IMG/VR virus record: IMGVR_UViG_3300021185_003211
Span: 1-33,269 of that record
DNA: 33,269 bases
Origin: a virus
Direction: 5' to 3' (one strand)
The notes under the pieces were generated by a model. The model saw only the letters and a list, made by a program, of their open reading frames with translations, ran no database searches and was not told where the DNA came from. This document shows positions 12,409 through 32,568 of this stretch, in pieces (within the stretch, counting starts at the first letter, position 1; the number at the start of each line of letters is the position of its first letter). Made by a program: the position numbers and the translations under genes.

Positions 12409-15400
12409 ATGGCAGAGCTTAAGCACACTTTCCTCAAGGGGAAGATGGATAAAGATAGCGATGAAAGATTAGTTGAAAATGGGGCATATAGAGATGCCCT
12501 TAATATACACGTATCTTCTTCAGAGGGTGCTAATGCTGGTGCGGTAGAAAATTTATTAGGTAATGAACAACTTTCTTCATTAGAATTAAAAAATGCAAAG
12601 GTATTAGGCTCTGTAGTTTACACTTTAAAAGATAAACTGTATTGGATTATAACTTCAGATAATATAGACGGTATATATGAATATGATCAAATACGAAAAG
12701 AAATATCTCCTATACTAATTGATACAAAAAGCGCAGGCAAAAAAACTTTTTTCTCTACAATTATAGATTCTAATTCTGATAATGAATTAATTTTAGATAA
12801 TGTATCAAATACGGATATAAGTACAATATTCGGAAATATCCCAAATAACAATAATGATGAAACGCTTGTTTCAAATAATATTGATCTTTATTGTGAAAAT
12901 CCATATATAAAAATATCTATACCAAAAGACACGGTAATAAGAAAAGAAAAAGATTTACTTGTATTTAAAAACATACATTATTCTGGTCAAGCATATGGCA
13001 GCGTTGATTTAAATGTGGATTTTTCATTAAAAAGTGTATTAAACTTTTCAAAAAATAATATTATAACAGGTATTAATATTATAGATGATATGCTTTTTTG
13101 GACAGATAATTTAAATGGCCCAAGAAAAATAAATATTTCAAGATTTAAAAAATATACAGAGTCACAAAAATCAAATAACGTAAATATATTTGAAACACAA
13201 ACAAAAGTATTGTTTGAAGATAAAGATGTGCATAGTAATATATTTATTAATACAAGAGATTTTACAGAAGATGATATTAGTTTAGCTAAAAAAGTGCCAA
13301 TGAGTGCACCTACATTATCATTATCTAATACATTAACTAATTCAGGTATTACTACAATACCATTTTTAACTAATTTTCAAAACAATAACGTAAACGTTGA
13401 CGTTGGTGATGATTTATTTATACCTGTTAAAACATTACCTATTTGGAAGGTAGGAGATACTATAATAATAACAGCTGAAAATCCAACTGTTGAAACTATT
13501 GAGCTTACAGCTACTGTAAAATCAATTTCTTTTATTGGCATAACATTAACATTAACAACTAAAGATGCTGATATAGACTATAGCTTAAACTATGAAGCTA
13601 CATTTACTTTATTAGAAAAAAAGCCAATTCATGAATTATCTTTTGTTAGATTTGGTTATAGGTGGAAATATAATGATAATGAATATTCATCTATTTCGCC
13701 TTTTTCTGAAGTTGCTTTTATACCAGGTGATACATTTAAGTACAGTGCTAAAGAAGGTATTAACACATCAATGGAAAATCAACTTAGAATAGTTGAATTA
13801 TCTGATTTTGATACCGGGGATGATAATGTTTCAGAAATAGAAATATTATATAAAGAAAGTGCTAATCAAAATATATATACTTTAAAATCAATAAAAAGAA
13901 TAGATTTTGAAGACACTTATGAAATAACAAAAGAACAAATACATTCAGTATTACCAAATGATCAGTTGCTTAGAGCGTGGGATAATGTGCCTAAAAAAGC
14001 AAAAGCACAAGAAGTAACTTCAAATAGAATTATATTTGGTAATTATAAACAAAATTATGATATTTATAATCCAGCAGAGTTTGATGTATTTATTTCTCAA
14101 AGATTTGGAAAGCAAAGTATAAAATCAAATAGAAATTATCAAATAGGTGTTTCTTATATTGATGAGTATAATAGACATTCACCTATACTTTCAAATGATA
14201 CAGGTTCATTTTTTGTAGATAAAAAACAAGCTACGGTATCTAATGAATTTAATATTGCATTAAAATCAAAGCCACCAGCATGGGCAAAACACTTTAAGTA
14301 TTATATAAAGGATATTTCTTCTGAATATTACAATTTAGCTGCTGATAGATTTTATGTAGATAAAGAAAACGGATTTGTTTATATTTCTTTTTCTTCAAAT
14401 GAAAGAAATAAAATATCAAAAGATGATTCTATTCTGTTAAAGAAAAAACACGGAACAGATGAAGCTGTTTCAACAGATAGTAACAGATTTAAAGTTATTG
14501 ACGTTTTTAATGAAGCACCAGCTTTTATTACACAAAGAAAAAAATCTATTCAGCTTTTAACTGATGTTAAATTTACTGATAATATTTCAGGTTCTAATGT
14601 TACAACCGTATTAAATAAAAGTGCGGGATCAGGGACTTTACCTAGACCAAGAAGTAAAAGTGTAAAAATAATGCAAGCTTTTAGAGGTCAAGACATTGAT
14701 ATCCCATCACATCACAACCATCCAAACGAGGGGGTTCCAACAAAATATTTATCTGATTTACAAGCTGGTAAATTTGTTAGATTTACTTATAATGATAATG
14801 GTAATGTTAAGCAAACTGATTATTATAAAATAGCATCCGTAAAAATAGACGGAGCTGACCATCCAGATGATAATTATCAAGTTGAATTATTTTTTGATAC
14901 AGTGTTCGGAGACGACGTTAACGTTCTTTATGATTCTACTGGCAATATTGGAGACTCAAACGGTTTAGGTGTAAATTTAGAAATTGCTGAAGAGTTTTCA
15001 GCGGCAGGTGATAAAGAGTTTGATGGTAGATTTTTTATTAAAGTGGCTGCTAATGAGGAATTATTATATATAAATAATTCATCAAATACAGATTATTACG
15101 ATTTAGAGGCTTTTGATTTAGCAGGTAAGGACAGACATTCTGATAAAAAGAATGATCATAGATTTGGACCTAAAAATAAGGTAGATGATAATCCAAAGTT
15201 TCCAATATTTATAAGTGATAATAACCCTGGAGGTGATTTTGCTTTTGGTATTACTATGTTAAACTATAAACAAGTAAGCTTAGAGGCTTTTGAAAAATTT
15301 GATATAGGCACAAAATTTTATATTAATGAGGATTCAAATAATATATATGAAATAGAATCTACATCAACACCAGAGTTTACTGTATTTAGTAAAAAACGCT

Positions 15401-18400
15401 TGGCTGGTGGTACTTATGATGGTAAACAAAAAAAAGAAAAGGACCGACCTATACTTAGAAAAAATTTAAAAATAAAAAGAGTTGAAACTGGAGATATAGT
15501 AAAAACACAAGATTTACCGCCTATACCTGCACTTGGTTCATTATCAACAATAAAGCTTACTATTGTTGAAGAAAACTTTGATAATAATAAAATACCTTTT
15601 TCTAAAAATCCTGCAATATTTGAAACAGAGCCAAAGCCAAACAAAACTGATTTAGATATTTATTATGAAACTGAAAAAGCATTTGATATATCAGAACATG
15701 GGAACTCTTTAAAAATAAAATGGTTTAACTGTTTTAATTTTGGTAATGGAGTTGAATCTAATAGAATAAGAGACGACTTTAATTCACCATTTATTCAACC
15801 AGGAGTAAAAGCATCAGCACCAATAACAGATCAAATAAAAGAAGAACATAAGTTTAATGGTATAATATGGTCAGGTATAATAAATTCAAGAAGTGGATTA
15901 AATAAATCTAATGAATTTAATGTAGCTTATCCTATAACAAAAGATTTATTACCGTCATATGGCTCTATACAAAAATTGCACGCATGGGATGATAGATTAA
16001 TCATGCTTTGTGAAGATAAAATTGTGCGAGCATACGCAGATAAAGATGTTATTTATAACGCTGATGGCAATATGAATATTGTTGCTACTAATAAAGTTAT
16101 AGGTGATGCTCAACCTTACGCAGGTGAATATGGTATATCTACAAACCCAGAATCATTTGCAGCTTATGGTTTTAGGTGTTATTTTACAGACAAAATGAGG
16201 GGTGCTGTAATAAGATTATCATTAGATGGTATGGAAGTTATTAGTAATTATTTTATGAGTGACTTCTTTAATGATAGATTTTTTGGTAGTGAATGTTATA
16301 ATTCAAAACAGGACAATTCATATTTATTAGGCTCATATGATAGCAATAATAGTTTATATAATATTTCTTTCTCAGGAAGAGATACCGTATGTTTTAATGA
16401 AAAAATAAATGGATGGGTGACTAGAAAATCATTTATACCTCAAAATGCTATATCATTAAATAATATTTATTATACATATAACAATGGGGATCTTTGGCAA
16501 AATGATTCATCTAATGTGCCTTATAATAATTTTTACAACGTACAGTATACTTCTAAAGTACAATTAGAAATTAATGATAATCCTTCTGTTATAAAAAAAT
16601 ATAGAACATTAGGTTATGAAGGAACTAAAGGATGGAAGGCTAATATAATTACAGATCAGGAAAAATCAAGTGATTTATATTTTATAGAAAAAGAAAATAA
16701 ATATTTTGCGTATGCAAAAGGTGAAGAAAAAAATTACACTAATTTAGATTTAAAAAGTTTTAATTTACAAGGTTTAGGAAATTCAATTGCTTTTTCTAAT
16801 CTTGCTCCTGCTTCTAGTACAGAATTGAAATTTGAATTATCACCGCCTGATACTTTTAAATATATATCAACACCTGCTATTTTAAATAATTTACCTGGTG
16901 CTATACTATTACCAACTGTTTCTATTACAATAACACCAAAAAATGGTTATATATTAGATGCAAATAAATTAAATATACCTAAAGCTGTTGTAACTAAATC
17001 TGGTAATAATTTAATTGTTGAATATACACATGGCATAAAAACTCAGCCTACTATAAATAAAAATATTGAAATAGGTTTATGTAAAATTAATTTTGCAGAA
17101 AAAGAAAATGTATCAATAACCGGTAATTATAGTTTTAGTAAAACAGGTAAAGTAAACTCTAGTATACCTGATGGCTCTTATAATATAAGTGGAAATACAA
17201 AAACATTAAAAAACACGGCAAAAAGAACATTAATTCCTGAACCAGGTAATGAAATATTATTTGATAGTATAAAAACAAATAATCCTAACGTACAATTAAT
17301 TAAAAAACAAAATGATGACGGGAGTGTAACGGTTACTGAAAGAATAGAAATAGGCACTTCTAATAAAACAAATTTTGATTATGAAATTTCAGCAATAGCT
17401 ATTGCTGCTACTGTAGCCACTAAAGAATTAGTGTTATCTTCTATTAATAAAGATGATTTAATTAATGAGAATTACAATAGAATTTTAAGTATTTATGGTG
17501 ATCCAGGAAGTGTATTTTCATATGAATTAGAAAATAATGTGGGAGCTATAGACAATATAAATAATATTTTAATACCAGATACAGGCATTCACCAGATACC
17601 AATAAACTTTGATTCATCAAATACTACTGATTTATTCACTATAACATTAACGCCTGGCCAAGACACGATAAATGGTGTTAATTTTGAAAATATTATACAA
17701 ATACCTAAAACTCAGAAAAGCACTCATGAGATTACTATGTTTTCTCAATTTAATAATACCATGAGTAATAAAAGTGTATTTAAAGCAACAAGTAACGATG
17801 CTATTAATTATGACTTTTCTTTTATTTTAAATTTACCCTCAGCTAATTATATTTTAAAATCACAAATAAAGCAAAAAGATTTTATTATTGACAACACAAC
17901 AGATGTTACAGAACTTACTGATTTAAATTTAGTATTAGATAATTCTGCAAATACTGTAACATTATCTGGTAATATTAATATAGATAAGGTTACAAGCGAT
18001 AATAAAATTATACTATTTTTAACTGACTTTTTAAATGAACAAATAACATTACAATTAGGATATAGTAATGTTACTGCAGCAGGGGTTACTACAACAAATT
18101 ATACATTTTCACCTTCTTCAACTTATTCAATAGTAGGTCCATCAGGTTTAGCTCCTCAAACTATTGAAAATGAATATTTATTTACATTAACACCAAGTGG
18201 TGGATTTGAATTTATAAATAATATAAGTTCTAATGATTTTGAAATAATAGATGGTGGTAATAATAATGTTACAGCTATATATGCTTTAAATAATACTGTT
18301 GATATTTCAGTGATAAATAGCGAGTTGGTTGTAAAAATTACTCCTAATAGCTTCAATATGCCTTTGGCTAATGAAACTATAAACATAGTGCCAAAAAATC

Positions 18401-20898
18401 AAGTAACGCAATCTATACAAGCCCCATTAAGTGATTATAGCTTAGTATACAGCCCTCTTGATAACGACGATAGATTATTTACAAAAAAATTAATATTAGG
18501 TAAATTAAGTGATTCTTCTAATCAACAATTTTTGTTTCAAAAAACATTTGTTATTGATAGAATATTAACACAAAACTTTGATTATACGAAAATTTTTAGT
18601 GTATCGGGCCATGTAATAAACTTATTAGACAATGAGTTAAGTTTAGCTACAGCGGGAACATATACAGATATAAATGGAAATTCTGTAACAGTAACAGATT
18701 ATATAGAGCTAAATACAAATAAAACAGAATTAACATTAAATATATTAGCTAATATAAATGCAGTTCCTGATAAAGCTATAGGTACTGTTGAATTTGATTT
18801 GGCTACTGAAGAGAGTTATCATGTAATAGAACTACAAGAGGGGGATTGTGATACTCATAAAGGCACACAAATAGTTAAATATAGATTATTTAATGCAGAC
18901 CCTTTAGATTCATTAATTACAAAAGGCTCTTATATAACCGATATTAATGATTCAACAGTTGGCGCTACTGATGGCAGTGCTGTTCTACAAAATAAATTTA
19001 AAATAGTAGGCGATGACAAGCTAGTAATATTAAATAAATCTACTATAAATAGTATTGATAAAGTAAAAGGATTTGAACAATGTGCTAAAAATGTAGGTAC
19101 TATAATTGATGCAAATGATATAACTAGAGTATATGGCGATCCTGATTTTAATATTGGTGCTACAAGTAATTCAGGAGCTACATTATCTTATTCTGTAAAA
19201 TTTAATTCATCTGTAATTACATCAACCACTTCAGGTAAAGTTAATATACAACAAGCAGGTGTTGCACAAGTAATTATTACAGCCCCCACAACAACAGTCG
19301 GTAATATAACATATCTATATACAACAAAAACAATAAATATTATTATACAAAAAGCAGACAGAACTATATCTTTTGATAAAGATACATATACAGCAAACGG
19401 TAAGTGGGCAGCTGCTACTGCTAAAGTTACTATGTCTGGTTTCCAGAGTACTCCAACATATAGAGTTATTGGCCCTGCAAATGTTGTTAATATTATTGCA
19501 TCTCAAAATGCACCCCTTGATACTGAAGTTTTAATTGGAGCTACGAATAAAGTTGGTTCTAGCACAACTATAGAGGTTGAAGTATTAGGAGGAACAAACT
19601 ACAATATAGCAAGAGATACTGCGGTATTTGAAATACAAACTTTTTTCTCTCCTGATTCAGATGGTGATAGAGTTCCTGATGCTGATGATTTATGGCCAAG
19701 TCATGGTGAAGCATATTATGCAAATCAATTTAATCTTACGCAAACAGCTTATCCAAACGATTCTGATACAGCGGTAACTCAATCAGGCGGTCAATTATAT
19801 GAATTTTACGATGGAAGTTTTAGCGGTTATATAGAAACCTCTCCTTTAAGCAAGCCTACTAACACAGTAGATAATTTGCTTACCTGGGAAGCAACCCCTC
19901 TTTCAAATTGGATAAATATAATACATTCATCAGGTGTTGTTGGAAAAGAAAATATTCCTTTTGTAATACAAAACAACACAGGAGGAGATAGAACGGGCAA
20001 TATAAGAATAACTTATTATTATAGAGGCATTGAAGTACAAAAAGTGGAACAAATTATAAGACAAAGTAGCACTTCACAGCCTGTAGTCAACCCACCGACC
20101 CCGGGAACCCCATCCACTCCGGCAACTAATCCTAATGTGCCTACCCCGGGAACCCCAGCCGCACAGGCAACTAATCCTAATGTTCCTCAAGCAACTAGCC
20201 CTAATATATTATCTTTAACACCTTATGCATCAAGTACATTTACTTATAATACTTATTACGGTCAAATTACTGCACAAGCCAAAGAAATTAATCAAACTTT
20301 TTATCATGATGGTACTAATGTATTACCTGAAGTAAATGATAAAGTTTATTCAGATGATGGTGGAAAATCAGTATTAAGAGGGCCAGGGGTATATAGAATA
20401 ACATCTACAAGCCTTATGACAATTGGTTATAGAGGTATTGTTACTGGGTTTGATAGCTTCCAATTACCAGGTAGTACCGCAATTGGTGATTTAGTATGTA
20501 GCAATGATCCAAGTGCTTCTTTATCTAATGAATTTAAAATTGCAGCTTCAATTACTGGTTCAATAAATAATCCTGATATATTCTTTACTAATCAAAGTCC
20601 AACAAGAGGAACTGTGTTAGATTATCAAGTAACAGCTGTATTTTTAGCTAATACTAATGAAAGAATAAAATGTTTAGTTCATTTCTTAATAAGAGTTGAT
20701 GGTACTCAATATGATAATTATAATAAAGCAATCGTATGTGCTGCCGTAGCTGAAACAATTAGCTTTACTAAAAAAATAGGATCTGATGAATTAACATTAG
20801 AAAAAGCATTTGGAAGTAAATTTGGAACTAGATTCTATGATAGAGCAAATCCATCAGCACCACTACCTGATCCAAAAGATTATCAACCTATGGTTTAA
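12409..20898 (+). CDS. Giant tail protein: stabilisation/muzzle-type N-terminus fused to a modular adhesin
   Basis: 2829 residues. The N-terminus (LKGKMDKDSDERLVENGAYR, then GAVENLLGN) and the block at about 1220-1460 (GISTNPESFAAYGFRCYFTD, WDDRLIMLCEDKIVRAYA, DLYFIEKENKYFAYAKG) match the pattern of P22 gp10-like stabilisation or crAss-like tail-muzzle proteins, expected to be beta-propeller-rich. From about 1465 it becomes an adhesin-like array. About 1496-2000 holds divergent beta repeats. About 2230-2412 is MBG-like (DITRVYGDPDFNIGATSNSG). Residues 2416-2427 form a thrombospondin-3-like calcium site (DSDGDRVPDADD). About 2490-2554 is BACON-like (LSNWINIIHSSG, NNTGGDRTGNIRITY). About 2560-2600 is a Pro-rich linker, and a C-terminal domain of about 230 residues follows. 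The protein probably closes the tail and binds the host surface. It lies after the connector genes with a TAATAAATG junction. The domain names are pattern-based. Confidence 0.75.
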   Translation: MAELKHTFLKGKMDKDSDERLVENGAYRDALNIHVSSSEGANAGAVENLLGNEQLSSLELKNAKVLGSVVYTLKDKLYWIITSDNIDGIYEYDQIRKEISPILIDTKSAGKKTFFSTIIDSNSDNELILDNVSNTDISTIFGNIPNNNNDETLVSNNIDLYCENPYIKISIPKDTVIRKEKDLLVFKNIHYSGQAYGSVDLNVDFSLKSVLNFSKNNIITGINIIDDMLFWTDNLNGPRKINISRFKKYTESQKSNNVNIFETQTKVLFEDKDVHSNIFINTRDFTEDDISLAKKVPMSAPTLSLSNTLTNSGITTIPFLTNFQNNNVNVDVGDDLFIPVKTLPIWKVGDTIIITAENPTVETIELTATVKSISFIGITLTLTTKDADIDYSLNYEATFTLLEKKPIHELSFVRFGYRWKYNDNEYSSISPFSEVAFIPGDTFKYSAKEGINTSMENQLRIVELSDFDTGDDNVSEIEILYKESANQNIYTLKSIKRIDFEDTYEITKEQIHSVLPNDQLLRAWDNVPKKAKAQEVTSNRIIFGNYKQNYDIYNPAEFDVFISQRFGKQSIKSNRNYQIGVSYIDEYNRHSPILSNDTGSFFVDKKQATVSNEFNIALKSKPPAWAKHFKYYIKDISSEYYNLAADRFYVDKENGFVYISFSSNERNKISKDDSILLKKKHGTDEAVSTDSNRFKVIDVFNEAPAFITQRKKSIQLLTDVKFTDNISGSNVTTVLNKSAGSGTLPRPRSKSVKIMQAFRGQDIDIPSHHNHPNEGVPTKYLSDLQAGKFVRFTYNDNGNVKQTDYYKIASVKIDGADHPDDNYQVELFFDTVFGDDVNVLYDSTGNIGDSNGLGVNLEIAEEFSAAGDKEFDGRFFIKVAANEELLYINNSSNTDYYDLEAFDLAGKDRHSDKKNDHRFGPKNKVDDNPKFPIFISDNNPGGDFAFGITMLNYKQVSLEAFEKFDIGTKFYINEDSNNIYEIESTSTPEFTVFSKKRLAGGTYDGKQKKEKDRPILRKNLKIKRVETGDIVKTQDLPPIPALGSLSTIKLTIVEENFDNNKIPFSKNPAIFETEPKPNKTDLDIYYETEKAFDISEHGNSLKIKWFNCFNFGNGVESNRIRDDFNSPFIQPGVKASAPITDQIKEEHKFNGIIWSGIINSRSGLNKSNEFNVAYPITKDLLPSYGSIQKLHAWDDRLIMLCEDKIVRAYADKDVIYNADGNMNIVATNKVIGDAQPYAGEYGISTNPESFAAYGFRCYFTDKMRGAVIRLSLDGMEVISNYFMSDFFNDRFFGSECYNSKQDNSYLLGSYDSNNSLYNISFSGRDTVCFNEKINGWVTRKSFIPQNAISLNNIYYTYNNGDLWQNDSSNVPYNNFYNVQYTSKVQLEINDNPSVIKKYRTLGYEGTKGWKANIITDQEKSSDLYFIEKENKYFAYAKGEEKNYTNLDLKSFNLQGLGNSIAFSNLAPASSTELKFELSPPDTFKYISTPAILNNLPGAILLPTVSITITPKNGYILDANKLNIPKAVVTKSGNNLIVEYTHGIKTQPTINKNIEIGLCKINFAEKENVSITGNYSFSKTGKVNSSIPDGSYNISGNTKTLKNTAKRTLIPEPGNEILFDSIKTNNPNVQLIKKQNDDGSVTVTERIEIGTSNKTNFDYEISAIAIAATVATKELVLSSINKDDLINENYNRILSIYGDPGSVFSYELENNVGAIDNINNILIPDTGIHQIPINFDSSNTTDLFTITLTPGQDTINGVNFENIIQIPKTQKSTHEITMFSQFNNTMSNKSVFKATSNDAINYDFSFILNLPSANYILKSQIKQKDFIIDNTTDVTELTDLNLVLDNSANTVTLSGNINIDKVTSDNKIILFLTDFLNEQITLQLGYSNVTAAGVTTTNYTFSPSSTYSIVGPSGLAPQTIENEYLFTLTPSGGFEFINNISSNDFEIIDGGNNNVTAIYALNNTVDISVINSELVVKITPNSFNMPLANETINIVPKNQVTQSIQAPLSDYSLVYSPLDNDDRLFTKKLILGKLSDSSNQQFLFQKTFVIDRILTQNFDYTKIFSVSGHVINLLDNELSLATAGTYTDINGNSVTVTDYIELNTNKTELTLNILANINAVPDKAIGTVEFDLATEESYHVIELQEGDCDTHKGTQIVKYRLFNADPLDSLITKGSYITDINDSTVGATDGSAVLQNKFKIVGDDKLVILNKSTINSIDKVKGFEQCAKNVGTIIDANDITRVYGDPDFNIGATSNSGATLSYSVKFNSSVITSTTSGKVNIQQAGVAQVIITAPTTTVGNITYLYTTKTINIIIQKADRTISFDKDTYTANGKWAAATAKVTMSGFQSTPTYRVIGPANVVNIIASQNAPLDTEVLIGATNKVGSSTTIEVEVLGGTNYNIARDTAVFEIQTFFSPDSDGDRVPDADDLWPSHGEAYYANQFNLTQTAYPNDSDTAVTQSGGQLYEFYDGSFSGYIETSPLSKPTNTVDNLLTWEATPLSNWINIIHSSGVVGKENIPFVIQNNTGGDRTGNIRITYYYRGIEVQKVEQIIRQSSTSQPVVNPPTPGTPSTPATNPNVPTPGTPAAQATNPNVPQATSPNILSLTPYASSTFTYNTYYGQITAQAKEINQTFYHDGTNVLPEVNDKVYSDDGGKSVLRGPGVYRITSTSLMTIGYRGIVTGFDSFQLPGSTAIGDLVCSNDPSASLSNEFKIAASITGSINNPDIFFTNQSPTRGTVLDYQVTAVFLANTNERIKCLVHFLIRVDGTQYDNYNKAIVCAAVAETISFTKKIGSDELTLEKAFGSKFGTRFYDRANPSAPLPDPKDYQPMV
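20098..20187 (+). repeat. Two tandem 45-bp units coding a Pro-rich linker
   Basis: Two in-frame 45-bp units (20098-20142 and 20143-20187) encode TPGTPSTPATNPNVP and TPGTPAAQATNPNVP; a partial third follows (QATSPN). Both contain ACCCCGGGAACCCC, a marked GC spike in an AT-rich gene. The units lie between the BACON-like domain and the C-terminal domain of the giant tail protein and probably form a stiff spacer whose length can vary by slippage. Confidence 0.85.
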
Positions 20899-23580: not shown

Positions 23581-26500
23581 ATGCCTAGATATAAATTACC
23601 TGATGGAACTATATATAATATACCTGAAGAAAAGGTAAATGGTTTTTTACAAAAATACCCTGATGCTGTAACGGAAACATTGGGAAAGATAACTCCTCTG
23701 CAGGAAGATCAAACGGGTGCACTTGCGGAGGTAAACGTAGCGCCCAATACGGATTTGTCTTTGGAGACACCTTCTTTGGATTCACAAGAAAAAGACACAG
23801 CGATTGAAAGAACTTTTGGTAAAAATTCTTTAACAGATTTTTTTGGAGATATCTATAGAGCTGCTAATAAAGGTTTAGAGCAATCTAGCTTAGTAGACCC
23901 TAGCATAAATTTATATAGAGAGGGGGCTGAAGCAGATGATAAAACTATTTTAAATTTTATAAAAGCCAACGAAGAAACTAATAAGAATATCATGCAATCT
24001 GACGAAATGCGTGAGTTTAATAAAATATATGAAGAAGAAGGTGGTGGATGGTGGGGTTTTGTAAAAGGTGCTGCTCTAAATCCTACTGTATTAACTCAAG
24101 AATTAGTCAGTTCTATTGCAATGCAAGTTGGAGCATTAAAATCTGATGAAGTTGCTACAGCCGCAACAGGAGGTTTAGTGGTTGGCGCAACAGGAGCTGG
24201 TTTAGCAACTGCCGGAGTTTTAGCTGTTCCTGGTGGAATTGCTGGCGCTATGGGCGGAGCTATGACTGCGTTAGAAACAGGATTAACATTTTCAGAATTA
24301 TTAAATAAAGAACTAGGAAATAATTTAACGATTGAAAATGTAAGAGCTTTTTTGCAAAATGAAGAAAAATTATCTGATCTTAAAAATAAAGCTTTAGGTA
24401 GGGGATTAACTATTGGAGCAATTGAATTAGCGACAATGGGTATTGCTAAAGGTGTTGGAGGTAAGATAGCTAAAGCTGGATTTAAAAGAGCTGGTTTAGC
24501 AACAGCAGCAGCAATAGGTGGTATTGAAATTGCTGGGGGAGCAGCGGGTGAGATTGCAGGTAGATTTGTAGCGGGACAAGAGATGGATACTGCTGAAATT
24601 GGATTTGAAGCATTTGCAGGGCTTGGCTCAGCTCCGGTTAGTATTTTAGGGCAGTCTAAAAACATTAGCAAAGGAATATCTAAAATAAAAATAGATAAAG
24701 AATTAGCTAATACTAAATACAAAGACATTTCTGATTTATTTTTAAATGAAGAAAAAACATCTGATACCGCTATTAACTTAACTAAAATTAAAAATTCCGC
24801 TAATATTATTATTGAAGAAATAAATAATAAAGTTAAAAAAGGCGAAATTACTAAAGAACAGTCTGATAAAATTAAAGAAAATTTTGCTATTACAGAACAA
24901 GCTAATAATAAATTAGACGTTTTAGAATATCAAGAAAAAGATAAATCAGAAATAATAGATTTATTAAAAGAAAAATCAAATTTAGAAATTAAAATAAAAA
25001 AAGTTGATGAGGCCTCATTAACTAAACCTGAATCTGATAGAATTCAAGAAATAGTTGCAAGATTAAACGAAGTAGCTGAAGTTAATACTGCAAAAAAATT
25101 AAAAAAATCTGTTTCGTTTGCTGAAAAAGCAGGTAAAGCTTTAGGATTAGAAACTGAAGTTTTATCACAAGAAGAGATACGTAAACAGTATGGAGATGAA
25201 GCTTCTAATTCTGACGGTTTTATTAAAAACGGTAAAATAATAATAAATGAAGAGGTAGCGAGGCAAACCGAAGCTGTAACAGTGGGGAGTCACGAAGTAC
25301 TACATGGCATTTTAAATAAAGCTTTAAAAGGAAAAGATGCTAATAAAATTGTAAATCAATTTAAAAAAGTAATTGGCAAACAACAATTAGCGAAAATCGA
25401 AGAAAGATTATATGCTAATGATGAAAATGGAAAACGGCTTTATAGTGATGAATATATTGCAGCAAATCAAGATGAATATTTTACATTATTTTCCGATGCT
25501 ATCCTGAAAAACCAAATTGAATATAACGAAAATATATTTACTAAATTAGGAGATCTTATAAGACCTATATTAAGAAAATTAGGATTTAATAAAATTAAAT
25601 TTGAAAGTGGCCAAGATGTATATAATTTTTTAAAAGAATATAACAAATCTGTAAAAGAAGGAGCACTTAGTCAAGATATTATTAACTTGGGAGCGGAAAT
25701 TTCATCAGAAAAAATACAGCTTTCTAAAACAGCTTCTGAAAAAGTACAAAAAATATTTGATGAAAAAGGTAAAGATGGCTCATTTGATATAATTGAAGCC
25801 TACAAGCCTTTAACTACTAAGCTGACAAATAAATATAGAAATGTACCCGGTTTTGAGTTTGAATTACTTCAAAGTGAAATTGAAATAGGTAAACGTGGTT
25901 TATTAGATCTTATCAATGCATACGACCCATCTAAGGGTGCAACTTTAAATACGTATGTACAAGGACAATTAGCCAATAGGTCTATTGAAGCAGCTAACCG
26001 TATATTAGATACGGAGTTTAAATTAGATGTAACAGAAGCTAAAGGAGTTACTGATACGGCAACAGCAGAAGAAACAATTGAAAGAGAAGAAGCTGCTCCT
26101 GTAGATGAAATAAAAAGTTTACGCAAAGAAATTGGTTTATCAGAAGAACTTGTTACTAAAGTTAAAGATGCTGTAGTAAAAACTTTTGGTACAAAACTAC
26201 CTAACCCTCAGGATCCTAAATTTAGATTTGAACTACAGAAAAGATTTAGAACAGAATTAAAAAAGCCTTTATCTAAGTTTGTAGGTAAGCAAGCTGATTA
26301 CGAAGCTTTCTTAAGAGACAACTTTGAATCTGTGTATAGCAAAATGCCTCAGTCATTAATAAATAGAAGATTTAAAGAATTTGCTGAACCTGTTCTTGAT
26401 AAGAATGGAAAACAACTTAGAGAGCGGACGGCAGAAGGCAATAAGATATATGTTAAAAAGAAAATATCTAAAGCTGAATGGATTAAATATTTTATAGGTG

Positions 26501-29500
26501 CTGATGTTAAAAGTTCAACTAAAGGAGCTAGAAAAACAGCTATAGTTGAAGGTATGGCAGAAGAAATTGCTTTTGATGCTACCATGGAAGTTTTAAATGA
26601 CCCTGATGTTATTTCAAAATACCAAGACATAGCCGAAATTACTGGGGCTATACTTCCTGATAACTATTTAGCTCAAATTGCTAAACAAATAGATAGAAAC
26701 GAAGATTTTAAATTTTCCAAAAGCATATTAAATGATTCTGGTTTAAGTAATCAAGAACTAAGCTCTATATTATTTGAAGGATTTATTTCAGCAGCCGGTA
26801 AAGTTGACCCTAAAATTATTGAAATATTATTGGATAATGCATGGGCTAAAAATTTTCCTAATGTATTAGAAGATTTTATTTTTCCGGGGTATAAAGAAGC
26901 ATTAAAAAATAAAACTATTGAAGAACAATCTGATTTAACAAGATATTTAATAAATATTATTTCAAGACCATTAAGAACTGCGTCCTATAAATCTAAAAAA
27001 CTAGAATATAATACAAATACTAGATTATTCAGAAGGCTTGAAAAAATTGCTGGGCCAAAACTTTTTGGTAAATTTAAAAGTAATGCTTTAATACAATTAG
27101 AACAAATACAAAGCCAAGATAAAAACGGAAATTGGTTAACAAAATCTTATATAAGGGATAAAAAAGGTATTGCTTTAGGAGCTTCTACTTATAATACTTC
27201 AGTGCAAACTTTTCATAAAGATTTAATAAATAATAAACTTTCAAGAAAAGAAGTTGATGGTGTTTTTAGTGAAAATAGGAATAGATTAAAAGAAATTATT
27301 TTTAAGCTTGGTCCTAAAAACAAAGGTTTAGCTATATCTCTTATTAAGCTTACGCAAAAAGACCAAAGAGGACTATTGAGATCATCTGGGCATATAGGGG
27401 GTATTGTACAAAATTATAATGGCGAAACTGTATTTGAGCATAGACCTCCTGTGCAATATTTATTTGAAAAAATAGTTGATTATATAGAAAAGCCTACAGA
27501 TGCTAAAAAAGAAAAATTAAATACATTATTAGATACCGCACAAATAAATGTAGTTCCAAAAGATTTTGCTGATATTGTTGATCAAGAATATAAAACTACA
27601 ATTCCATCAGACGGAAAAATTAGTTATGAAAATGCATTAAATAAAACTAATTATAAATTTGATGGTATATTTAAGTTTTCTAAATCATTAAATAAAGATT
27701 TTAATAAAATATTAGAACAAAGCACAGATATTGATTGGGCTAAAAGATTTTCACCTGTTGAAGCAAGGGTTGTTGGAAAAGGTAAAGGTAAAAAATTCTT
27801 TATTCCTTATTCAGCAGATGATTTTGTTGGTTTATTATACGCAACATTAGGTAAAGGTAAAGTAGGAGATCAACAAATGGAATGGTATAAAGAAAATTTA
27901 CTTAGACCGTTTTCTCGTGGTATTCAACAATATGAAGCTGCAAAACAACAAGCTCTTAGAGATTGGCAAGTATTAAAAAAAGAAGCTAAAAAAAATGTGC
28001 CCGGTGGGTTGGGTAAAAAGAATGCTACTGGACTAACTAATCAAGATGCGGTACGTATTTATATTTGGACTACACAGGGTATGGATATACCAGGAACCGA
28101 AGGAAGCCCAGAATTAGTGCAACAAAACTTAGAAATAGTTAAAAATGATGAAAAGTTAAAAGCTTTTGCAGATCGCTTAATGGCTTTAAATCCAGAAGGT
28201 TATCCAGAACCATCAAACAACTGGGATTCAGGGGATATAACAACAGACATTGTATCTTATATAAATGGGGTTAAGCGTAGTGAGTTTTTAACTGAATGGA
28301 AAGCAAATGCTGATGAAATATTTTCTGATCAAAATAAAGAAAAGCTAAGAGCTTTATATGGAGACACTTATATTGAAGCATTAGAAGATATACTTTATAG
28401 AATGCGTACCGGTACTAATAGAAAATTTGGTGCCAGTAAAATTGAAAAACAATTTATGGATTGGACTAACAATTCTGTAGGTGCAATTATGTTCTTCAAT
28501 GCTAGATCCGCTGTACTTCAAACATTATCAGCTATTAACTTTATAAATTTTAGCGACAACAATCCTATTAGCGCAGCGCTTGCTTTTGCTAATTTTCCTC
28601 AATACGTAAAAGATTTTACAACATTATTTAATTCAGATTTCTTAAAACAACGTAGAACCGGTTTACAAACTGATGTTAATGCAGATGAAATTGCTAGAGC
28701 AGCAAAAGGATCTAAAAATACAGCAAGAGCGATGTTAAGTGCTTTACTTAAATTTGGTTTTACACCAACTCAAATTGCTGATAGTTTTGCAATTGCATCT
28801 GGCGGAGCTACAATGTACCGTAACAGAATTAATAAATATTTAAAAGAAGGTTTAAGCCAAAAAGAAGCTGAACAAAAAGCATTTACTGATTTTCAAGAGA
28901 TTGCAGAAGAAACACAACAATCTGCAAGACCTGATAGAATATCATCACAACAAGCGAGCTCATTAGGGCGCCTTATATTGGCTTTTGGTAACACACCTAT
29001 GCAATACGCTCGGTTAACTAAAAAGGCTACATTAGATTTGATTAATGGACGAGGAGATTGGAAGACAAATATAAGTAAGATTGCTTATTATAGTGTAATA
29101 CAGAATATTGTATTCTCTGCTTTACAACAAGGATTATTTGCTTTATTGTTTGATGATGAAGATGATGATAAAGAAAAGTCTAGACTATTTAGAATTGGTA
29201 ACAGTAGTTTTGATACTTTACTAAGGGGTATCGGCGTTTATGGTGCAGCGGCTGCTACTGTAAAAAATATGATTATAGAAATAATTGAGCAATCCGAAAA
29301 ATCAAGGCCTGATTATACTAAAATTGCAATTGAAGCAACATCACTTTCGCCTCCTATTAATTCCAAATTAAGAAAACTTGAATCTGCTGGTAAAACATTT
29401 ACTTATAAGCAATCGAAAGAAAAAGTATTTACAGAAGGGTTTAGTTTAGAAAATCCTGCATTTTTAGCTGGAGGTAAAGTATTATCTGCTGCAACAAACT

Positions 29501-29712
29501 TACCCGCAGATAGAATTGTACAGAAAGCAGATCATCTTTATACTGCTATGCAATCTGAAACAGAATTATGGCAGGCAATTGCATTATCACTCGGTTGGAG
29601 CGAATGGGATTTGAGCATGATTGAAAAGCAAACTAAAAAATCTAAAAAGTTTAATCCTAGAGATACAAATAGAAATATAAATAGAACAGTTAAAAGAAAA
29701 TTTAAAAGATGA
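23581..29712 (+). CDS. Giant polyvalent virion protein: zincin, sigma-70 region-2-like and helical C-terminal domains
   Basis: 2043 residues. The N-terminus, MPRYKLPDGTIYNIPEEKVN, is a short motif found at the start of many phage internal proteins. Hydrophobic Gly/Ala-rich segments lie at about 190-230 and 277-345 and may cross membranes. A zincin signature, HEVLH, is at 571-575, with DEYFTLFSDAI about 80 residues on as a possible third-ligand helix. Residues 735-809 resemble sigma-70 region 2 (IIEAYKPLTTKLTNKYRN, ending YDPSKGATLNTYVQGQLANR). Three similar linkers recur: KIQLSKT (711), DFKFSKS (1042) and IFKFSKS (1363). The conserved helical C-terminal part (about 1630-1850, LGRLILAFGNTPMQYARLTK) resembles a domain of phage large polyvalent proteins. 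It ends in a basic tail. Probably packaged and ejected; an internal-protein role is inferred from order and size. The stop overlaps the next ATG (ATGA). Confidence 0.7.
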   Translation: MPRYKLPDGTIYNIPEEKVNGFLQKYPDAVTETLGKITPLQEDQTGALAEVNVAPNTDLSLETPSLDSQEKDTAIERTFGKNSLTDFFGDIYRAANKGLEQSSLVDPSINLYREGAEADDKTILNFIKANEETNKNIMQSDEMREFNKIYEEEGGGWWGFVKGAALNPTVLTQELVSSIAMQVGALKSDEVATAATGGLVVGATGAGLATAGVLAVPGGIAGAMGGAMTALETGLTFSELLNKELGNNLTIENVRAFLQNEEKLSDLKNKALGRGLTIGAIELATMGIAKGVGGKIAKAGFKRAGLATAAAIGGIEIAGGAAGEIAGRFVAGQEMDTAEIGFEAFAGLGSAPVSILGQSKNISKGISKIKIDKELANTKYKDISDLFLNEEKTSDTAINLTKIKNSANIIIEEINNKVKKGEITKEQSDKIKENFAITEQANNKLDVLEYQEKDKSEIIDLLKEKSNLEIKIKKVDEASLTKPESDRIQEIVARLNEVAEVNTAKKLKKSVSFAEKAGKALGLETEVLSQEEIRKQYGDEASNSDGFIKNGKIIINEEVARQTEAVTVGSHEVLHGILNKALKGKDANKIVNQFKKVIGKQQLAKIEERLYANDENGKRLYSDEYIAANQDEYFTLFSDAILKNQIEYNENIFTKLGDLIRPILRKLGFNKIKFESGQDVYNFLKEYNKSVKEGALSQDIINLGAEISSEKIQLSKTASEKVQKIFDEKGKDGSFDIIEAYKPLTTKLTNKYRNVPGFEFELLQSEIEIGKRGLLDLINAYDPSKGATLNTYVQGQLANRSIEAANRILDTEFKLDVTEAKGVTDTATAEETIEREEAAPVDEIKSLRKEIGLSEELVTKVKDAVVKTFGTKLPNPQDPKFRFELQKRFRTELKKPLSKFVGKQADYEAFLRDNFESVYSKMPQSLINRRFKEFAEPVLDKNGKQLRERTAEGNKIYVKKKISKAEWIKYFIGADVKSSTKGARKTAIVEGMAEEIAFDATMEVLNDPDVISKYQDIAEITGAILPDNYLAQIAKQIDRNEDFKFSKSILNDSGLSNQELSSILFEGFISAAGKVDPKIIEILLDNAWAKNFPNVLEDFIFPGYKEALKNKTIEEQSDLTRYLINIISRPLRTASYKSKKLEYNTNTRLFRRLEKIAGPKLFGKFKSNALIQLEQIQSQDKNGNWLTKSYIRDKKGIALGASTYNTSVQTFHKDLINNKLSRKEVDGVFSENRNRLKEIIFKLGPKNKGLAISLIKLTQKDQRGLLRSSGHIGGIVQNYNGETVFEHRPPVQYLFEKIVDYIEKPTDAKKEKLNTLLDTAQINVVPKDFADIVDQEYKTTIPSDGKISYENALNKTNYKFDGIFKFSKSLNKDFNKILEQSTDIDWAKRFSPVEARVVGKGKGKKFFIPYSADDFVGLLYATLGKGKVGDQQMEWYKENLLRPFSRGIQQYEAAKQQALRDWQVLKKEAKKNVPGGLGKKNATGLTNQDAVRIYIWTTQGMDIPGTEGSPELVQQNLEIVKNDEKLKAFADRLMALNPEGYPEPSNNWDSGDITTDIVSYINGVKRSEFLTEWKANADEIFSDQNKEKLRALYGDTYIEALEDILYRMRTGTNRKFGASKIEKQFMDWTNNSVGAIMFFNARSAVLQTLSAINFINFSDNNPISAALAFANFPQYVKDFTTLFNSDFLKQRRTGLQTDVNADEIARAAKGSKNTARAMLSALLKFGFTPTQIADSFAIASGGATMYRNRINKYLKEGLSQKEAEQKAFTDFQEIAEETQQSARPDRISSQQASSLGRLILAFGNTPMQYARLTKKATLDLINGRGDWKTNISKIAYYSVIQNIVFSALQQGLFALLFDDEDDDKEKSRLFRIGNSSFDTLLRGIGVYGAAAATVKNMIIEIIEQSEKSRPDYTKIAIEATSLSPPINSKLRKLESAGKTFTYKQSKEKVFTEGFSLENPAFLAGGKVLSAATNLPADRIVQKADHLYTAMQSETELWQAIALSLGWSEWDLSMIEKQTKKSKKFNPRDTNRNINRTVKRKFKR

Positions 29713-30825: not shown

Positions 30826-32568
30826 TTATCCATCGCAGGATATACAATCTGGATCCATTGCTTTAGCAGCAATATCACCTCTTAATACAGATTCAGTTCT
30901 CATATAATATAATGTTTTAATTCCACGCTTCCAAGCCTCTAAGTGCACTTTATTAAGCCATTTAGGTTGTGCTTCTGATGGAAATGCTAAATTTAAACTT
31001 ACTGATTGATCTATATAATCTTGACGTATACCAGCTTGATTAATTAATTCTAATTGATTGATTTCTTTAAATGTTTTAAATACATTTTTTAAGGGTTCCC
31101 CTTCTTCTTGGTTGAGCTTTCCCCCATGATCGTAAAACCATCCATCGAGTTCTTTAATTCCTTGAACGGATCCACCATCTTCCAAAATTTTATCCCAAGT
31201 TTCTTTAGTGTCAATTCCAATTTTTCGTAATACTTTTTTAAGTTCTTTATTTTTTCTAATAAATGTGCCTTTAGCACTTTGTTCTGTAAATACGTTAGCA
31301 GCCCAAGGCTCAATTCCAGGAGATATATTTCCGCTAAGCTTACTGTTAGACACAGTAGGGGCCACAGCCCTAAGATGAGTGTTGCGAGTACCAGTACCCA
31401 CACACCAGAGCGGCTCGCCATATACTTCTGCAAGATCTCTCGATGCTCTTTCAGACTCAATCTTAATTTTGCTAAAAATTTCACGTGTTTTAAACTGAGC
31501 TAATAAACCTTCGAACGCAATGCCATTCTTTTGGAGTAGACTGTGCCATCCTAATACTCCCAGACCAAGGGCACGTCCTTTTTCCGCGCTGCGGACAGAG
31601 TTCTCGAATCCCTTCATGTTTTTTGCTTTCTGAATAAACTCCTCTAATACTCCGTCTAAAAACCATGTTGCGTCATATATTAAATTAGTGTTTTTCCATT
31701 CATCATATTTGTCTAAATTAACAGAAGATAAGCAACATACAAAGCTGTGTGATTCATCTGTATGTAATGTAATTTCACTACATATATTCGTCATATGAAC
31801 TTTGAGCCCATTTGATTTGTACGCTTTTGGATTATTTTTGTTTGTATTTCCCTTAAAGAGTATATAAGGCTCTCCAGTTGCTTTACGCTTTTGTAATAAC
31901 TTTGACCATTTGATTCTAGCTTCTTTATCTCCCTGTTCAAGTCTTCGCATAAACTTGTCACCGACCACAGCGCACTGGTGTAGGTTAAGTGATTGTCTAT
32001 TAACATCTCCTTTTGGTTCTCTGATCTCCAACCATTCTTCAAAGTCGGGGTGATCAATATTAATGTTAACTGACGCAGCTCCTCTGCGGACAGATCCTTG
32101 ATTAGTGGCAAGTATTGTTGAATCGTATATCTTGCAAAACGGGACCACTCCATCACTTGTTCCATTACCTGTAATTTTAGCACCAGCGGGTCTTATCATA
32201 TTAATTCCTAGACCAACACCGCCTCCATGCTTGGCTAGGAGCATCATTTCTAAATTCTTTTGTCCTATATCATTTATGCTATCAGCAACATCAATACCAA
32301 AACAGCTAATAGGTAAACCTCTATCTGTACCTGTGTTAGAAAGTACTGGTGAAGCTAAACACAACCAACCATCCCATATGTATTGAAAAAACTTTTCTGC
32401 CAATTCTGGCTTATATAAACGCTTAGCAACTGCATTAGCTACTCGCTGATATGCTTCCTTAGGTGTTTCACCTTGAAATAAATAACCTCCAGTTATTGTT
32501 TTCTTATAGACTTCAGTATCGCCCCAAACAGGATAATCTTCGCCTTTAACCCATTCATTATTCCACAT
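30826..32568 (-). CDS. nrdA: Ribonucleotide reductase class I, catalytic alpha subunit
   Basis: 580 residues; reduces ribonucleoside diphosphates to deoxy forms for phage DNA synthesis. Visible active-site elements: SCF with Cys89 (first redox Cys), NICSE at 261-265 (Asn, thiyl-radical Cys263, Glu), Cys279 in VCCLSSVNL (second redox Cys), the radical-transfer tyrosines LYY at 553-555, and a C-terminal CISC pair (575, 578) that accepts electrons from thioredoxin or glutaredoxin. SGNISPGIEPWAANVF is the substrate phosphate-loop region. It is shorter than E. coli NrdA (about 760 residues) and lacks the N-terminal ATP-cone. In some Bacteroidota enzymes the cone is on NrdB instead, but the nrdB start is outside this window. 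It overlaps the preceding small gene by 11 nt and ends at a bidirectional terminator. Confidence 0.95.
   Translation of the reverse strand: MWNNEWVKGEDYPVWGDTEVYKKTITGGYLFQGETPKEAYQRVANAVAKRLYKPELAEKFFQYIWDGWLCLASPVLSNTGTDRGLPISCFGIDVADSINDIGQKNLEMMLLAKHGGGVGLGINMIRPAGAKITGNGTSDGVVPFCKIYDSTILATNQGSVRRGAASVNINIDHPDFEEWLEIREPKGDVNRQSLNLHQCAVVGDKFMRRLEQGDKEARIKWSKLLQKRKATGEPYILFKGNTNKNNPKAYKSNGLKVHMTNICSEITLHTDESHSFVCCLSSVNLDKYDEWKNTNLIYDATWFLDGVLEEFIQKAKNMKGFENSVRSAEKGRALGLGVLGWHSLLQKNGIAFEGLLAQFKTREIFSKIKIESERASRDLAEVYGEPLWCVGTGTRNTHLRAVAPTVSNSKLSGNISPGIEPWAANVFTEQSAKGTFIRKNKELKKVLRKIGIDTKETWDKILEDGGSVQGIKELDGWFYDHGGKLNQEEGEPLKNVFKTFKEINQLELINQAGIRQDYIDQSVSLNLAFPSEAQPKWLNKVHLEAWKRGIKTLYYMRTESVLRGDIAAKAMDPDCISCDG

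Follow-up and report, generated by a model that had tools for sequence, protein, structure and literature searches.

A repeated peptide at module borders of a giant zincin-bearing protein from a crAss-like phage: a candidate self-processing site

The window, that is, the whole stretch of DNA analysed here, is a virus record of 33,269 bases (IMG/VR IMGVR_UViG_3300021185_003211). It encodes a giant multidomain protein of the polyvalent type, 2043 amino acids (aa) long, in which a short peptide of the form F/I-K/Q-F/L-S-K-S/T occurs three times. Two readings of this peptide had been put forward in a preliminary description of the sequence, cleavage sites for the zincin of the same chain and marks of modular assembly by recombination, and the question is what keeps such a peptide at several places of one protein. 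We find that it repeats in the protein and in its relatives, that it stands at module borders, that it is conserved as a peptide, that it lies C-terminal of the zincin domain, and that relatives without the zincin lack it. The explanation that we favour, with somewhat better than even confidence, is that the peptide is a portable site for self-processing, at which the zincin of the same chain cuts and so frees the downstream modules, the first of them sigma-like. The features of the protein are as follows.

23581..29712, plus strand: giant multidomain open reading frame (ORF) of the polyvalent type, 2043 aa; the N-terminal part matches phrog_32588 at 1.3e-56, and relatives were found
25291..25476, plus strand: catalytic part of the zincin, from HEVLH (residues 571-575) to the conserved Glu 632, from aligned relatives
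25705..26007, plus strand: candidate sigma-70 region 1.2/2-like module, residues 709-809, starting at junction 1, from structure comparison
25711..25731, plus strand: junction motif 1, KIQLSKT, residues 711-717, from motif match, alignment edges and model
26704..26724, plus strand: junction motif 2, DFKFSKS, residues 1042-1048, from motif match, alignment edges and model
26725..27666, plus strand: exchangeable module between junctions 2 and 3, residues 1049-1362, from alignment edges; no Pfam match
27667..27687, plus strand: junction motif 3, IFKFSKS, residues 1363-1369, from motif match and alignment edges
27688..29709, plus strand: conserved C-terminal module, residues 1370-2043, common to all relatives used

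The junction peptide in the window protein and its family

The expression [FI][KQ][FL]SK[ST] has three matches in the window protein; 20,000 shuffles of the same protein average 0.004 matches and never reach three. Thus the three copies reported earlier are real and far above the shuffle expectation. The residues of the motifs had been given exactly, the end of the region at 27690 being three bases beyond the last motif. The even spacing of about 330 and 320 residues did not hold up. It is not conserved: of the nine other three-copy proteins only L090 is similar (334/323), and the remaining ones have spacings from 11 to 783 residues. With that range among the ten three-copy proteins, regular spacing was rejected as a signal.

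The first search for relatives gave 12 loci. A second one, made with the conserved C-terminal module, covered the best 80 of 166 relatives, which makes this a partial sample of the family. With the window protein they make 91 proteins, of which 19 near duplicates were dropped, leaving 72 for the counts. These proteins have the C-terminal module in common, and their upstream modules differ widely. All four-residue words were counted wherever the flanks on either side are unrelated. QFSK takes the first rank with 15 independent places against 2.3 expected, FSKS the second (16 against 3.4) and FSKT the fifth. Across 20 shuffled sets no word did better than 10^-6.0, compared with 10^-7.6 for QFSK and 10^-6.3 for FSKS in the real set. 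The extended form [KQR][FLY]S[KR][ST], which was defined after the data were seen, has 73 copies in 39 proteins, whereas shuffles have 5.2 and at most 10. The flanks of the motif favour I, F, V or L before it and L or I after it.

The copies coincide with the borders of conserved modules. Alignment edges at most 12 residues from a motif copy average 16.3, against 1.7 at random places, with 0 of 2000 random placements as high; with the common junction 3 removed, the values are 6.4 and 1.3. When the window protein is compared with ten relatives, the alignment starts at 715 or 718 in two of them, ends between 1039 and 1066 in nine, and starts between 1361 and 1367 in seven. The edges thus lie near the three motifs. 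Moreover, unrelated modules meet at the same peptide in different relatives. Together with the alignment edges this strongly supports the idea that the peptides are marks of modular assembly.

The 50 copies of [KQR]FSK[ST] are encoded by 40 different 15-base spellings, with codon use equal to the background, and FKFSKS, present twice in the window, is spelled differently in its two copies. Because of the background codon use and the number of spellings, selection is taken to act on the peptide and not on the DNA; a repeat conserved at the DNA level was considered and rejected on codon use.

The modules of the giant protein

As expected of a polyvalent protein, several unrelated domains are found on one chain, namely the zincin-type, sigma-like, exchangeable and C-terminal modules. 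Pfam gives no match in the 2043-aa window protein. InPase, LPD3 and LPD23 are carried by L015, which tblastn matches weakly (24% identity over residues 1596-1831). Tenacibaculum phage Gundel_1 has a weak relative that bears the annotation structural protein. A search found no relatives for the module that lies between junctions 2 and 3. The module before junction 3 that is common to L109 (8525-9997), L093 (8573-9985) and L105 weakly matches DUF2608, at 1.8e-05 in L093, which is over the cut-off, and at 0.0045 in L109.

The AlphaFold model of residues 480-1250 has a mean predicted local distance difference test score (pLDDT) of 62. Motif 1 lies inside a stretch with pLDDT under 50 (215-238 in model numbering), between better folded blocks, and motif 2 is at the start of another such stretch (566-612). 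The model of residues 1040-2043, which covers motif 3, has a mean pLDDT of 45 and is too poor for use. Hence the claimed position between domains is supported for motifs 1 and 2, neither of which is placed inside a domain core by the model, while for motif 3 the model gives no guidance.

The block that starts at motif 1 resembles sigma-70 region 1.2/2, which we regard as a moderate lead from a predicted structure and not as proof. Residues 709-809 match E. coli sigma70 (6ca0_F) in VIA-align with Z 8.7 over 96 aligned residues, a root-mean-square deviation of 4.1 and 19% identity, and a fragment of RpoS region 1.2/2 with Z 7.2 over 92 residues and 20% identity, values which, by the tool's own warning, are middling for helical folds. 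Sigma factors account for 17 of the 50 VIA-align rows, all within model residues 226-337, and a profile search weakly yields FliA over the same part (E 1.8). The putative sigma-70 region 2-like module would thus follow junction motif 1 immediately, within a giant protein that is probably carried in the virion.

In the zincin domain, HEVLH occupies residues 571-575, and Glu 632 is the only other column that is invariant in 20/20 aligned rows; these rows were picked from 64 for having HExxH and have as little as 17% identity to the window protein. The invariance of Glu 632 fits a zinc ligand, so that both the HExxH motif and a downstream Glu candidate ligand are present in the window protein. 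No clear Foldseek match to a zincin fold was obtained with the model of residues 480-1250, and nothing appeared at E 0.001 or better. In nine relatives (L128, L129, L132, L134, L136, L141, L153, L155 and L156) an additional HExxH stands some 60 residues from the C-terminus, and all nine are without [KQR][FLY]S[KR][ST].

The junction peptide and the presence of the zincin

An HExxH domain and repeated border peptides are combined in one chain here, and the peptides would be the sites if the protein is a self-processing polyprotein. FS[KR][ST] is found in 45/64 proteins with HExxH and in 0/6 without it, or 0/7 counting L173 (Fisher p 5e-4, a value that treats the rows as independent, although they are related). 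The truncated rows without HExxH, L150 and L158, are left out of this comparison, and the truncated L174 is uncounted. At junction 3, a strict form of the motif was distinguished from a loose one, [FLYAS]S[KR]. The strict form is present in 38/64 zincin-bearing proteins and 0/7 zincin-less ones, the loose form in 57/64 and 1/7, L173 being scored by eye in both cases. Neither HExxH nor HExxxH occurs within the zincin-less proteins, nor in other frames of at least 100 aa in the fetched stretches of six zincin-less relatives.

By sequence comparison, L105 is the most telling single case for loss of the motif along with the zincin. The modules on both sides of its junction 3 are homologous to those of the zincin-bearing L123 and L142, and the module before the junction is 57-58% identical to theirs, yet QAKVQFSK is replaced by QAKKPAK. 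A serine-leucine pair right after the junction 3 motif (SLDK, SLSR, SLDR, SLSK) is kept in five of the seven zincin-less rows. Since the pair persists without the zincin, this suggests that the specificity of the cut would reside in the part of the motif before it.

The position of the motif points the same way. In zincin-bearing proteins, 68 of the 70 copies are C-terminal of HExxH, whereas about 27 would be expected before it. The first copy is situated 135-156 residues past HExxH, just beyond the zincin domain, in 16 of 37 cases.

The C-terminal modules attached to the zincin-less upstream lineage (L095, L101, L105, L108, L113, L173) belong to several branches of the family tree, which is evidence of module swapping.

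Several observations weigh against the link between motif and zincin. Firstly, it is not strict: 19/64 zincin-bearing proteins have no FS[KR][ST], and the strict motif is absent from junction 3 in 26/64 of them. Even the loose form is missing there in 7/64. Thus homologues lacking the motif at a domain edge, which the preliminary description had named as grounds for rejection, do exist, and they are few when the loose form is counted. Secondly, the nearest relatives of L105 (L109, L009 and L093) carry the weaker VKASK and not QFSK. Thirdly, the zincin-less upstream block in five rows is one clade (72-77% identical; L173 is 65% identical), therefore the loss of junctions 1 and 2 amounts to about one event plus the distant L012, and the zincin itself may have been lost in perhaps just two events. 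In the most distant row, the zincin-less L012, FSKA and QFSKE stand near where junction 1 would be, and junction 3 reads SSK. For junction 3, the losses may represent several events, and the C-terminal tree requires six separate placements of the zincin-less rows; however, the tree-aware pair test is not significant, as of six pairs 3.6 agree in direction, 0 are opposite and 2.4 show no difference (median p 0.125). Finally, the assignment of the zincin is weak by profile (zinc endoprotease 1c7k, E 0.16).

A model of self-processing and its alternatives

Under the self-processing model, the portable site would be hydrophobic-[Q/K/R]-[F/L/Y]-S-[K/R]-[S/T]-[L/I], placed in flexible linkers that connect the modules of a giant and probably virion-packaged protein. 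These sites would be cut, in cis or between copies, by the zincin of the same polypeptide. The predicted pieces are the N-terminal arm with the zincin (about residues 1-713), the sigma-like module (about 714-1045), the exchangeable module (about 1046-1366) and the C-terminal module (about 1367-2043). Since the same site would stand at every junction, a module newly gained by recombination would still be released. Packaging in the virion, cleavage, the exact bond cut and the timing of the cut are what we infer. The earlier proposal of cleavage sites for the internal zincin is thus supported indirectly, by the absence of the peptide from relatives without the zincin, its C-terminal placement and its conservation as a peptide.

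One alternative is that the peptide is a favoured inter-module linker, swapped together with the modules, kept for flexibility or for threading through the tail, and never cut. The coincidence of the motifs with alignment edges and low-confidence linkers, as well as the many module swaps observed, agree with it. However, a plain linker should have no need of a fixed Q/K-F-S-K core at unrelated borders, and it should neither keep to one side of the zincin (68/70) nor vanish with it. We therefore consider this explanation unlikely, though it is to be taken seriously.

The peptide could also be a docking or cutting site for some other factor, such as a separate phage or host protease, a chaperone, the portal or an RNA polymerase. 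Such a role would be compatible with the 19/64 zincin-bearing proteins without the strict motif, as the link with the zincin is then not one to one, and a GroES-like protein is encoded in the window. Against it speak the loss of the motif from zincin-less relatives and its position on the C-terminal side of the zincin; moreover, the window proteins that were scanned include no recognisable separate protease. We judge this explanation slightly less likely than the plain linker.

Conservation at the DNA level, as a short homology or recombination hot spot for module exchange, would explain why module borders fall at the motif, but it is very hard to reconcile with 40 spellings in 50 copies, background codon use and the differently spelled FKFSKS copies of the window. 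Chance repeats of a common composition can practically be dismissed, given that no window-protein shuffle in 20,000 reaches three copies and that the family has 73 against 5.2.

A broader form of the self-processing model is more tentative, and we put it a little short of an even chance. Crass-type phages might use one cut code, hydrophobic-[Q/K]-F-S-K-[S/T], read by the zincin of the same chain, that frees any injected module set between two copies. Exchange of effectors as plug-ins, a sigma-like transcription module among them, would be driven by the code, which would decay with the loss of the zincin, while a related DIRFSRS-like code may serve other polyvalent proteins.

The window and the neighbouring genes

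The genes for the terminase (phrog_6681), the portal (phrog_6547) and other virion proteins were found in the window, and the 2043-aa gene sits downstream of the virion genes. One more large gene bears on the type of the phage.

12409-20898: ORF of 2829 aa with a match to PF25729 crAss_MUZ_C (crassvirus muzzle C-terminal domain) at E 9e-07, over the cut-off

The crassvirus muzzle protein domain is a feature of the Crassvirales. The virion genes and this protein, taken together, indicate that the window comes from a crAss-like phage. The muzzle protein also has a BACON-like stretch, below the threshold. The gene for the GroES-like co-chaperonin (1630-2229; phrog_13932, 6e-18) adjoins the terminase gene. 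The large subunit of ribonucleotide reductase is encoded on the minus strand (30826-32568, 580 aa; phrog_84, 2e-151); it covers positions 204-795 of the 975 in the profile and is shorter than the latter.

Comparison with other polyvalent proteins and known systems

Peptides of the DIRFSRS, DIRFSLV, NTRFSRS and DVRYRF types are seen at apparent domain borders in the polyvalent proteins L039, L030, L034 and L015. L039, a 2459-aa protein of the polyvalent type encoded by an ORF on the minus strand, has several DIRFS-type peptides. In 44 other large proteins, IRFS occurs at 6 independent places against 0.8 expected, outside the top 30 words. A scan of the DNA of viral contigs found DIRFSRS in two (one being L039) and the swapped control DFRISRS in four, and is too narrow to judge by. 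Hence the DIRFSRS-like peptides as a possible analogous junction code are a lead, the enrichment being modest and some of the peptides seemingly tied to one domain type. In a set of nine named LPD38-type phages, FSR[SA] copies resembling the junction peptides occur in Vibrio phage D274 alone; in VvAW1 and Pag-Yong1, HExxH is present but the motif is not. The data do not establish one motif common to all polyvalent proteins.

No junction sequence of this kind was found in the literature searched, a search that left most subscription journals and bioRxiv outside. Very large virion cargo proteins are described for phiCrAss001 (gp45, gp46, gp47, gp49 and gp50; PMC10172136). They resemble the window protein in size and in their crAss-like origin; zincin, cleavage and proteolysis go unmentioned in the portion of PMC10172136 considered here.

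The processing of the polypeptide by a zincin-like MPTase domain was proposed for polyvalent proteins by Iyer et al. 2017 (PMC5512222), and the window protein shares with theirs the phage origin, the giant multidomain build and an HExxH domain. DdrB of phage P1, polyvalent and with an MPTase domain, is reported there to be processed to about 76 kDa before packaging; its MPTase is C-terminal and one product is reported, whereas in the window protein up to three putative sites follow the zincin. The virion RNA polymerase of phage N4, also a giant virion protein with an MPTase domain, is packaged unprocessed according to the same source, while processing is predicted for the window protein. The sections of PMC5512222 consulted name no cleavage-site sequence or linker, unlike the present case, in which one particular junction peptide recurs and goes with the presence of the zincin. 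Since the presence of the motif tracks that of the protease, the idea of self-processing becomes directly testable. If it is true, the module borders and mature products of many giant phage proteins would become predictable, and the free gain and loss of modules in such proteins would be explained.

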